A DNA stretch of 57,483 nucleotides, from assembly GCA_024542985.1 (NCBI GenBank), contig JAMXCX010000004.1, positions 1-57,483 of the forward strand, in the 5' to 3' direction. Position 1 is the first letter of the stretch, and the number at the start of each line of letters is the position of its first letter. Of the stretch, positions 53,828 through 57,406 are shown piece by piece. Position numbers and translations under genes: made by a program. The DNA comes from Candidatus Omnitrophota bacterium (GTDB lineage Bacteria; Omnitrophota; Gorgyraeia; Duberdicusellales; 4484-171). Under the pieces are notes generated by a model that saw nothing but the letters and a program-made list of their open reading frames with translations, searched no databases and was not told where the DNA came from.

Positions 53828-54358
53828 TCATTTCCTGCCAAGATCAGAAATTTTTTTCAATATTAAATTAGGCAGCAAATCTCTATTATTAAGAGTTACC
53901 TCGTCTATTTCTATATCGTCTCTCTCTTTTATTCGGAGGATGAATTCATCGCTGCCAAGAGTTATTGTGCCTATAACTATATTGGCAGAATCAAGGGCGC
54001 AAATTGCGGCCTGCCTAAACTTTTGGGAAAAACATTCCATCTTACCGATTTCATCAAGTATTATAGCATTATCCTTGATAGGCATAATTGAAGGCACTGC
54101 TACCTTTTCAATATTCTCAATGCTTACTCCGTAACGCCTTATATGAAAACTAGATTTAATATCTTGATGCGCGAGATAGGCTGTTTTTCCATCAAGAGTC
54201 GTCATTAAAAAACCTACTCTTTTTTTACCTTGCCTTTCTTCTTCGGTGTAAAAGCCATTGGCTAAAAAACTTAAGTCTGCTATCACTTTCTTTATGACGG
54301 TGGTTTTCCCTGACGAAGGAGCACCGGTTAAAAAGATATTTTTCTTTACTTGCTGCAT
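53828..54358 (-). CDS. THEP1-type nucleoside-triphosphatase
   Basis: IFLTGAPSSGKTTVIKKV; NAIILDEIGKME. Confidence 0.92.
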   Translation of the reverse strand: MQQVKKNIFLTGAPSSGKTTVIKKVIADLSFLANGFYTEEERQGKKRVGFLMTTLDGKTAYLAHQDIKSSFHIRRYGVSIENIEKVAVPSIMPIKDNAIILDEIGKMECFSQKFRQAAICALDSANIVIGTITLGSDEFILRIKERDDIEIDEVTLNNRDLLPNLILKKISDLGRK

Positions 54359-54422
54359 AATAATACGTTCCGAATATAAAAATAAAAATATTTCTAATAA
54401 ATTTAATTTCTGAAATTTTCCA

Positions 54423-54484
54423 TTTTAAATCAGCTACCTAACGGGCCGCAAAGCTGCGGAGTTAGGTCAGGTGGATTGTTAGAT
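54423..54484 (-). repeat. attC-like site A (R' box degenerate)
   Basis: ATCTAAC-AATCcAcCTgACCTAAC-tCCGCAgctTTGCGGccc-GTTAGGTAGcTGATTtaaaa. Confidence 0.75.
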
Positions 54485-54488
54485 AATA

Positions 54489-54935
54489 TTATTCAGAAAT
54501 AGATTCTAGGTCGGCTAAATCTTTATGACGCCCGATTGATCTTTTATTAGTAATTAGCTCATCCTTACCTATAAAATATACCCCAATATTTCCGTATTTT
54601 CCTGCAAGGCGATTACTTGAAATCTGCTTCCAACTTACTCCAGTAATAGAGGTAAGAATATCTATACGAATTGGGGGAACGCCTAATTGTATAACTTTTC
54701 CTTGAGAGGAGAGATCTTCAACATTAAGGCTTACTGATTCAAATCCAAAATCTTTTATTGCTTTAAGGATTTTCTTTGCATTACTCAAATCTGGTTTGAC
54801 CAAAATATCTAGATCTCCAGTATATCGAGGGCAGCCGTGGAAGGCTAGGGCGTAGGCACCAACAATTACATATTCAACTTTATGTTTGTTGAATAACTTT
54901 AATAATTCTTTGAAATCTTTTTGTGGTTCCATCAA
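54489..54935 (-). CDS. Nucleotidyltransferase-fold protein (cassette gene)
   Basis: EYVIVGAYALAFHGCPRYTGDLDILV; ends 5 bp before the R'' box of site A. Confidence 0.85.
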   Translation of the reverse strand: MMEPQKDFKELLKLFNKHKVEYVIVGAYALAFHGCPRYTGDLDILVKPDLSNAKKILKAIKDFGFESVSLNVEDLSSQGKVIQLGVPPIRIDILTSITGVSWKQISSNRLAGKYGNIGVYFIGKDELITNKRSIGRHKDLADLESISE

Positions 54936-55053
54936 ATTGCTTCCTTAATATTTCTACTGCTTCGATGCGTTCTTTGGGAGATTTTGAAAGCCAATAGGCT
55001 AGATCATCTCCCTTCTCTTTCAAGCTCAATTTTTTTATAACTTTTTTTATCAT
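54880..55053 (-). CDS. Small 57-aa protein overlapping the nucleotidyltransferase gene (not in the ORF track)
   Basis: Hand translation MIKKVIKKLSLKEKGDDLAYWLSKSPKERIEAVEILRKQFDGTTKRFQRIIKVIQQT; 56-bp overlap in another frame. Confidence 0.75.
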   Translation of the reverse strand: MIKKVIKKLSLKEKGDDLAYWLSKSPKERIEAVEILRKQFDGTTKRFQRIIKVIQQT

Positions 55054-55098
55054 AATATTATTATATCAAATATACCTAACTTTTCTATTTTATTTTCT

Positions 55099-55169
55099 AT
55101 CTAACATAAAAATCAACTGCCAAGACCACGCGAAGCGCAGGATTGGTCAGCTGGATTGCCTTGTTATGC
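55099..55169 (-). repeat. attC-like site B
   Basis: GCATAAC-aaggc-AATCcAgCTgaCCAAtcctgCGCttcGCGtggtcTTGGcAGtTGATT-tttat-GTTAGAT. Confidence 0.88.
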
Positions 55170-55179
55170 ATTAAACTTT

Positions 55180-55899
55180 TTATTCTTTCATCAATTTGAT
55201 TACCCTATAGCCTTGACTGCCTTGTAATTCTGTTGGAGCAAATTCGTCGCCTTCTGCGGTGATGAGAGTAACTTGTGACTCATCATATCCGTGTGCCAAT
55301 AAAAGTTTACTGAACTTTTCCTCATTTTGAATTGGAGGAGCCACCATAAGAAGTGAATCAAATTCGTTCGTATTTTTTTCTATAGCGCGTATCAAAACAT
55401 TGGCACCAGCATACATAGAGAAGCCCATTATCTGTGAGTCAGGGTAGGAAGATTTAAAATGCTTCGCAACTCTTACAACGTAATTACTCGCATTTTCGTA
55501 TAACTGTAAGACATCCTCTGGATAACTGTTTTCCTTTGCCCATTGATAAATATCGCCATGATATCTTAAGGCTACCTCAAGAAGAATTTTGTCATTTTTT
55601 AGAAATATCGTATCAAGCAATTTAATGCCTGGCTCATTTAAATTATCATCTGGATACGAAGGAAAGTGCGTGATTTGAAACACATGAGCATTCCCAAATT
55701 GTTCATTAAGAGCGAACTCAATATGCTGATCTACACGTTGCAGTTCAGCAAATTCTTCCGCCGTGAACCCGTGGATTTCGTCCAACCTAGTAATGCCAGT
55801 TATATGAATAATTAAGACTTTTCTGTTTTCACAATGGCCATTTGAAACAAAGAGAAAACTGATTAGGCATAAAAACACAAAGAACAATTTCTTTTTCAT
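55180..55899 (-). CDS. Exported alpha/beta-hydrolase-like protein (cassette gene)
   Basis: Signal peptide MKKKLFFVFLCLISFLFVSNGHC; GFSMYAG nucleophile-elbow-like; start after GGGAG (track start 55953 is upstream). Confidence 0.7.
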   Translation of the reverse strand: MKKKLFFVFLCLISFLFVSNGHCENRKVLIIHITGITRLDEIHGFTAEEFAELQRVDQHIEFALNEQFGNAHVFQITHFPSYPDDNLNEPGIKLLDTIFLKNDKILLEVALRYHGDIYQWAKENSYPEDVLQLYENASNYVVRVAKHFKSSYPDSQIMGFSMYAGANVLIRAIEKNTNEFDSLLMVAPPIQNEEKFSKLLLAHGYDESQVTLITAEGDEFAPTELQGSQGYRVIKLMKE

Positions 55900-55942
55900 T
55901 ATTACTCCCTTCGTTTTCGCAGATATTTTCAGTTTTATATCT

Positions 55943-55991
55943 GCATAACACAAAAATCAGCGGCGCGTTAGCGTCCGCTGGATTGTTAGAC
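55943..55991 (-). repeat. attC-like site C
   Basis: GTCTAAC-AATCcAGCGGaCGC-taac-GCGcCGCTGATT-tttgt-GTTATGC. Confidence 0.88.
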
Positions 55992-56013
55992 ATGAGAATA
56001 TTGTAATAATTTT

Positions 56014-56706
56014 TTATGCGTCTCTTTGTGACTTTTGCAAAATGACTAGATTACCCGGATTCGCCCATAACTCGAAGCGTCTTAGGGCATAATATGCTGC
56101 TCGTCTACTCCCGGCAAAGCCTGAATTCGCTGTATCATGCAAAGCAAGTAGTCCTCCTGTAATAAGCTTTTGGCTCCATGCATCAATATCAAAACTAACG
56201 TTAGCATAGTCGTGAAGCACATCAATAAACACAAAACTGATTGATCCAAATGGCCAATTCCGCCATGCATCGCCAGAAGTTTTTTTCAGATGCGACACAT
56301 TGTTGCAATCGACGACATTATTTCTAAAAATTTTGCAGGTTTCTTCTGTGGCACCATAACCGAAATAAGGATCTACAGCTATTACCTTTCGATTAGTAGA
56401 TTGGGCCAAACATCTTGTAGTTTCACCTTTATATGAGCCCACCTCGACTACTACTGCGTTACCCATGTGCTCGGTATGTTTCAATGCTGCAATTAAGTAT
56501 TGCATTAATTTTGGTGACACAGCTGTTTGACGTTGATCAAATTCAGGTGGCGAAGCTAACCCAATTAATTCTTTGGAAGGAATATTATAACGCTTGAAAT
56601 TCAAACGCGCCCATTTATCATCAAATCTTGACTTGGCAACAAAAAGAACTCTTAAGGGGTACCACCTGTAATATTTTTTTTTGATACTGAATGGGTCAAT
56701 TACCAT
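56014..56706 (-). CDS. Class I SAM-dependent methyltransferase (cassette gene)
   Basis: VVEVGSYKGETTRCLAQS...VIAVDPYFG...FVFIDVLHDYANVSFDIDAWSQKLITGGLLALHD. Confidence 0.82.
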   Translation of the reverse strand: MVIDPFSIKKKYYRWYPLRVLFVAKSRFDDKWARLNFKRYNIPSKELIGLASPPEFDQRQTAVSPKLMQYLIAALKHTEHMGNAVVVEVGSYKGETTRCLAQSTNRKVIAVDPYFGYGATEETCKIFRNNVVDCNNVSHLKKTSGDAWRNWPFGSISFVFIDVLHDYANVSFDIDAWSQKLITGGLLALHDTANSGFAGSRRAAYYALRRFELWANPGNLVILQKSQRDA

Positions 56707-56731
56707 AATTAAATTTCAATTATTTTTTTAT

Positions 56732-56797
56732 TTCTAACACCCGAAATCACCGGCTGGAAAGCGCAGCTTTACAGTCCGCTGGATTGGTTTGTTATAC
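56732..56797 (-). repeat. attC-like site D
   Basis: GTATAAC-aaacc-AATCcAgCGgaCTGtaAAGCtgcGCTTtcCAGcCGgTGATT-tcgggt-GTTAGAA. Confidence 0.88.
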
Positions 56798-56803
56798 GGA
56801 ATT

Positions 56804-57238
56804 TTATTTCCAAAACTGCCAAATTTTTATACCGGGTATATTTTGTGATTCATTTATTTGTTTTGTTGTTTGATATTTAAAATCGGCAATAACGTTACCT
56901 ATTGTAGGGGCGCGGTTTCCGCGCCCGTTAATTTTATCATTATTGTTATTATTATCCGGGCGGGGTGACCCCGCCCCTACAATATTTATTATTCCATGGA
57001 TATGGTTTGGCATTATTCTATATTCGTCCATGGATATATTATTATATTTTTTAAACATTGCCTGCCACCAGGAATTAACCATAATTCCGGCATCATTTAA
57101 CGCCATTTGATTATTTTCAATGGCACCGAAAATCTCTGTGCGGTTTTGGATGCAAATGGTTACAAAATATTGACCGGGTTTTGAATAGTCATGCTGGGGT
57201 ATACGGTTAGTATTACGGCGGGTGGATAATTTGGGCAT
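56804..57238 (-). pseudogene. IS200-like/REP-associated tyrosine transposase (Y1/RAYT), truncated at the 3' end
   Basis: HDYSKPGQYFVTICIQNRTEIFG, YRIMPNHIHGIINI; expected C-terminal region after KIWQ is missing. Confidence 0.85.
56901..56983. repeat. Inverted pair of GC-rich REP-like palindromes inside the transposase ORF
   Basis: ATTGTAGGGGCGCGGTTTCCGCGCCC ... GGGCGGGGTGACCCCGCCCCTACAAT. Confidence 0.85.
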
Positions 57239-57406
57239 TAATTTTGTTTCTAATTTTTATTATTTTTTCACCTAGCAATTAATAGACAGAATCCGTATTT
57301 TGCCAGAATTTATTAAATTCTTCGGTTTATTATAACACATCTCCAAAAAATCATCTAATAACAAAATTCTTGAATTATAGCCTGATATATTTATAATAAC
57401 CGCATA

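Follow-up and report, generated by a model that had tools for sequence, protein, structure and literature searches.

The window, by which we mean the whole stretch of 57,483 nucleotides analysed here, contains what is very probably a chromosomal integron cassette array of Omnitrophota, one that is headed by an attI-like site, was inserted by IntI, is now static or servable only in trans, and is one of several attI-headed arrays dispersed over the genome. Judged by its sequence, it is a CALIN with an attI-like head of its own, within an integron layout in which multiple attI are dispersed. The assembly from which the window comes, as contig C60, totals 1.57 Mb in 106 contigs and is 88% complete; the data base consists of draft MAGs, and E-values are rough throughout. 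An Omnitrophota host, which the original prediction had guessed, is borne out by a genome of the same family (G005), which matches CP070807.1 (Candidatus Omnitrophota bacterium bin1292) at 100% identity along 1934 bp. The four minus-strand hairpins that it had described are all present at the coordinates it gave, and between positions 54418 and 56797 they bound three cassettes, with a fourth gene, encoding a REP-type transposase, lying past the last hairpin (Table 1). In the proposed order, the attI-like docking site would be followed by the REP-transposase gene and then by the methyltransferase, hydrolase-like, and nucleotidyltransferase cassettes between attC sites.

Table 1. Features of the window array and its flanks, listed from the array head, with the flanking gene at the contig end last.
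Feature	Coordinates	Strand	Evidence
attI-like site at array head	57264..57302	-	R2 match, 25.6 bits, E 1.8e-5
REP-associated tyrosine transposase-like gene, head position	56804..57238	-	NF047646, E 1.1e-5, under curated cut-off
attC site 4	56732..56797	-	R1 70.1 bits (training-set member); ssDNA fold z -2.7
Cassette gene, class I methyltransferase (Methyltransf_24)	56014..56706	-	PF13578, E 4e-15
attC site 3	55943..55991	-	R1 52.3 bits (training-set member); ssDNA fold z -3.95
Cassette gene, exported alpha/beta-hydrolase-like protein	55180..55899	-	signal-like N-terminus and GFSMYAG motif, by eye in translation
attC site 2	55099..55169	-	R1 64.0 bits (training-set member); ssDNA fold z -0.97, no better than shuffles
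Small ORF (57 aa) of nucleotidyltransferase cassette	54880..55053	-	67% identity over 42 aa to copy in G004 array
Cassette gene, DUF6036-type nucleotidyltransferase	54489..54935	-	PF19502, E 4.8e-5
attC site 1, last of array, R' box lost (TTTAAAATGG)	54418..54484	-	R1 18.7 bits, held out; ssDNA fold z -2.8
THEP1-type NTPase, flanking gene marking array end, no cassette	53828..54358	-	PF03266, E 6.9e-41
GT2 glycosyltransferase gene start, rest on contig C64	57407..57483	+	exact 77-base overlap joining C60 and C64

Clustering, covariation, and cassette ends mark the four window sites as genuine integron attC sites, in agreement with the original prediction. The sites were searched with R1, a covariance model that stood in for the published attC_4 model of IntegronFinder and was built from 7 attC sites of the same genome, three of which lie in the window and match by construction. 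Genome-wide, R1 returned its 7 training sites and three weaker matches (C30 at 21973, C84, and the window at 54418), of which the C84 match (23.8 bits, 25% GC) was set aside as probable chance. The held-out window site has an E-value of 0.82 genome-wide and 0.054 locally, its low score being due to the loss of the R' box, and two further held-out sites, on C30 and C46, reach 36.2 and 25.5 bits. All 8 matches above 30 bits are confined to C30, C46, and C60, where they are clustered at cassette spacing; neither a genome-wide scatter of the same hairpins, named beforehand as the outcome that would speak against attC identity, nor the dispersed intergenic copies unrelated to cassettes that define REP/BIME elements were seen. 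Across the family, 19 of 37 genomes contain R1 matches, 119 in total and for the most part in clusters of like orientation. This attC sequence type is not phylum-specific, the pattern being found also in Proteobacteria, Nitrospirae, Elusimicrobia, Planctomycetota, and others, and an Rfam search returned only tRNAs and no attC family.

A first alignment of 8 sites (the four in the window and four from C46 and C30) has the common form TAAC-n-CAATCCAnCnGAC ... GATT-n-GTTA, in which two extrahelical bases are invariant in 8/8 sites: the top-strand C after AATC, already singled out as a shared unpaired base, and the A after the next stem step. Folded as ssDNA, sites 1, 3, and 4 are better than their shuffles (z -2.7 to -4.0) and site 2 is not. 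In an alignment of 65 sites, 87.8% of cells in the R''/R' and L''/L' arms are paired (site 1 has no R'), and 13 of the 18 stem pairs vary on both sides. The alignment was fitted to the model and leans towards structure, which makes slid and shuffled controls the relevant comparison for its covariation score of 0.285, against 0.129 when shuffled and at most 0.061 with the partner slid. The most diagnostic evidence is the mirror between cassette ends, which we read as the trace left when cassettes are excised and inserted at G^TT via a circle. With a crossover at G^TT, a single circle supplies both the left end of a cassette and the R'' on its right, so complementarity between them is expected. 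Over 40 cassettes, 3.18 of the 4 variable bases match between the left end and the cassette's own R'' (permutation mean 1.97; 0/20,000 permutations reach the observed value), while the control, R'' against the R' of the same attC, matches at only 1.78. The three window cassettes score 3, 4, and, with the R'' of site 1, 4. It is scarcely credible that these hairpins represent palindromes such as REP-type repeats or terminators, with no role as recombination sites. The array does have a palindromic repeat and a gene for a REP-type transposase beside it, but the sites are clustered and co-oriented, with variable loops and invariant extrahelical bases, and they are accompanied by the G^TT mirror, by attI heads, and by intact IntI in relatives; on the mirror and the distribution together, we ruled the REP or terminator reading out.

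The original prediction saw no attI, and here it needs correction, since an attI-like site heads the array (Table 1). In 19 of 21 loci of the phylum, attI lies upstream of intI in the form CGTATATTAATTG^TTAGR, with the crossover 94-192 bp from the start codon. R2, a sequence model of 44 positions, was built from 18 intI-linked attI sites of other genomes, with the window's own genome excluded; on that genome it matches C68 (2699 and 143), C30 (22262 and 20523), the C60 site, and C46 (1417), with E-values from 7e-7 to 4e-4. An attI pattern search of the same genome found only the C30 array heads and C60, plus one 3-mismatch site on C38. The C60 head reads ..ACGGATTCTGTCTATTAATTG^CTAGGTG.., with its predicted crossover between 57276 and 57275, where a mutation has turned the usual G^TT into G^CT. 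In 17 arrays from seven genomes, both C30 attI sites and C46 among them, the right end of attI mirrors the R'' of the first cassette (3.18/4, with 9/17 perfect and 0/20,000 permutations as high). At C60, the head cassette does not mirror attC 4 (1/4), which together with the mutated crossover identifies this head as degenerate; the transposase gene may have replaced, or become fused with, the first cassette. The motif GTTATAAT near 57331 (minus strand), first taken for a cassette boundary, was dropped on finding the attI-like site and is at most a -10-like box, and a palindrome left of attI failed as a strictly genome-specific feature, with several variants occurring within G004.

The leaders of C30 and C46 resemble the intI-linked leader of G004 (0/300 shuffles). 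The C60 leader has no significant similarity to intI-linked leaders beyond about 40 bp, and its attI could therefore be a look-alike. Such limited similarity would suit an off-target insertion, in which a trans-acting IntI used an attG-type chromosomal secondary site resembling attI and C60 was never an integron platform, and attG insertion is documented (PMC12901181; reference list of PMC11023631). We regard this as unlikely, because attG sites are described, in the portions of these sources consulted, as divergent from classical att sites, whereas the C60 site agrees with the C30 attI at all but one of 21 bp and conforms to the 44-position attI model (E 1.8e-5).

The locus lacks intI, as had been noted from the window, and the same is true of its continuation on C64, which shares the window's final 77 bases exactly and is the only other contig to have that stretch. 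Past the overlap, C64 carries glycosyltransferase, radical SAM, SpoIID-like, LpxI, LpxA, and LpxC-FabZ genes, which are ordinary genes with no intI among them. The array had been proposed to be either a CALIN or the distal part of an integron; the former holds, and the latter is unlikely given that C64 runs into such genes. It is also very improbable that C60 is an assembly artefact, produced by a break in an ordinary complete integron. The array does sit at a contig end of a draft MAG, but that end is bridged by the overlap with C64, and the attI-like site lies between the array and the C64-side housekeeping genes. In an empty-site comparison of the THEP1 and GT2 flanks, the closest THEP1 loci (G015 and G036) were without the other flanking genes.

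An integron-integrase profile search found no intact intI in the window's own assembly, from which, at 88% completeness, an intI may be missing; the matches on C31 and C52 are XerC/XerD-type proteins, not IntI. The genome-wide search suggested with the original prediction thus turned up more attC sites (C30 and C46) and, as regards intI, a relic at C46 only. This fragment, at C46:1583-1666, reads AIKRAGIVKETTVHTVRHSFVTYLL and is 64-65% identical to the IntI of G004, G008, and G014, against 46% for the genome's own XerC-like protein of C31. It is divergent to the C46 array and lies near RumA- and AMP-ligase-like genes, 59%-identical relatives of which are found near the intact intI of G014. The relic and these shared neighbours make it most likely that the C46 integron decayed in place. 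Intact IntI is present in 5/37 genomes of the family and 18/384 of the phylum. As there is no local integrase at C60 and no intact intI in the assembly, the window array would now be static, or filled and servable only in trans.

Several attI-headed loci can be identified in the window's own genome (C30, C46, C60, and a degenerate one on C68), and many related genomes appear, from sequence comparison, to have several attI-headed arrays spread over the chromosome with at most one or two intI. With R2 at E at most 1e-3, the family has 38 attI sites in 16 genomes. Only 5 of these lie beside intI, 19 are followed on their own strand by an attC no more than 3 kb downstream (against an expectation of 0.12 for all 38), and 18 of the 33 intI-less sites head attC arrays. 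In other families, 13/13 tested intI-bearing genomes have attC and 10/13 have more than one attI match, some with two intI. G004 has its intI on C29 and attI-headed arrays inside the long contigs C13, C18, C22, and C27, so contig breakage is not the cause. Within a single genome, leader homology to the intI-linked copy extends over 107-168 bp in G004, 130-145 bp in G014, up to 204 bp in G016, and 146 bp at 95% in G029, and the leader copy of G016:C25 retains 24 intI codons. The attI leaders were most likely dispersed by duplication of the leader or of the whole platform, together with intI loss.

How cassettes came to lie at these platforms can be proposed from the anatomy of the sites. An IntI-type tyrosine recombinase would have recombined folded bottom-strand attC sites with attI, with a G^TT crossover, laying cassettes at several attI platforms. 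In the present strain, intI would have been lost or left unassembled, and the arrays would be fixed, or movable only with IntI from elsewhere, action in trans being a presumed step. Another course of events, in which C60 began as a complete integron and, as at C46, lost its own intI by deletion, with no trans action ever, is tenable, though we put it somewhat short of even. A degraded-integron origin has been proposed for CALINs (PMC9024848, as far as its consulted text goes), C46 has its intI relic and, like C30, an intI-promoter-like leader, and intI codons persist at G016:C25; C60 itself, however, yielded no intI remnant, and G004, with one intact intI, has its four attI-headed arrays inside long contigs without intI. 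We tentatively entertain, leaning slightly against it, a distributed integron in which several attI platforms across the chromosome, each with a short array, share a single IntI that acts in trans and has an additional N-terminal domain, the window being a satellite platform.

The Omnitrophota IntI is extended at its N-terminus by approximately 105 residues, which precede the part that TIGR02249 and the solved IntI4 structure (2a3v) match, as seen at L161 3722-5047, L163 4579-5886, L162 1363-2745, and other Omnitrophota intI loci. The IntI of other phyla aligns only from approximately residue 104-125, with the exception of one Gammaproteobacteria case that was compared with a shorter query. 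The extension has no Pfam match, and an AlphaFold model of the extended IntI, mostly of low confidence (mean pLDDT 51), suggests that it forms a four-helix domain.

The cassette content of the window is mixed, comprising by its predicted products a nucleotidyltransferase and small-ORF pair, a methyltransferase, and an exported hydrolase-like protein, the last without a Pfam or NCBIfam match. Cassette exchange within the family is supported by G004, whose intact integron contains the nucleotidyltransferase cassette in decayed form (L161 8103-8301). One attC of the C46 array (L015 902-969, minus strand) differs from the rest in being of a classical sequence type, which suggests a cassette from another source. 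Relatives of the window's transposase sit in arrays of G004:C13, G025:C188, and G035:C11, and REP-type transposase genes recur in or beside arrays of several genomes (window 56804-57238; L212 2389-2640; L202 2082-2519; L169 9701-10054; L019 2369-2569). On C30 (L016 5304-5541 and 7043-7280), a 237-bp direct duplication at 94% identity covers the GlnRS 3' end, an intI-promoter-like leader, and attI, and both copies stop exactly at the G^TT crossover. C68 (L019 143-180, 520-555, and 2699-2737) has three tandem attI-like sites, each located before a gene, and the repeat lying between them (GGTGGAGGGATGGGG...) seems to halve attC sites.

Integrons and CALINs are known from many phyla (PMC9024848, PMC9668308). 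In the parts of this literature consulted, attI is described as adjoining intI, and degradation of integrons is the origin proposed for CALINs. The window shares with CALINs as delimited by IntegronFinder at least two attC sites and no intI nearby, and it differs from those described in the sections consulted of PMC9024848 in its attI-like head and in the presence of several such loci in one genome. Its attC type, attI consensus, and crossover are those of the sedentary chromosomal integrons with Omnitrophota intI (G004:C29 and G014:C68); unlike these, it has no intI adjacent to attI, and the crossover base of its attI is mutated. With attG insertions, as cited in PMC12901181 and PMC11023631, it has in common cassettes outside a complete integron, but the window site fits the attI model of its lineage, whereas attG sites are there called divergent. 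In class 1 and 2 integrons, Delta-attI-type cassettes also place attI-like sequence away from intI; in the account consulted (PMC12901181), a partial attI replaces attC within one array, whereas in Omnitrophota a near-full attI heads arrays at separate loci. In the open-licence literature, we found no report of Omnitrophota integrons, nor of several attI-headed, intI-less arrays in one genome.

Omnitrophota have real integrons, with attI sites spread over the chromosome, mostly without intI and each with its own array. In an active system, a single integrase could supply cassettes to many separate expression sites; in an inactive one, the arrays would show integron decay at stages that are unusually well preserved. 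In both cases, a lineage-specific attI model makes intI-less arrays readable and testable.
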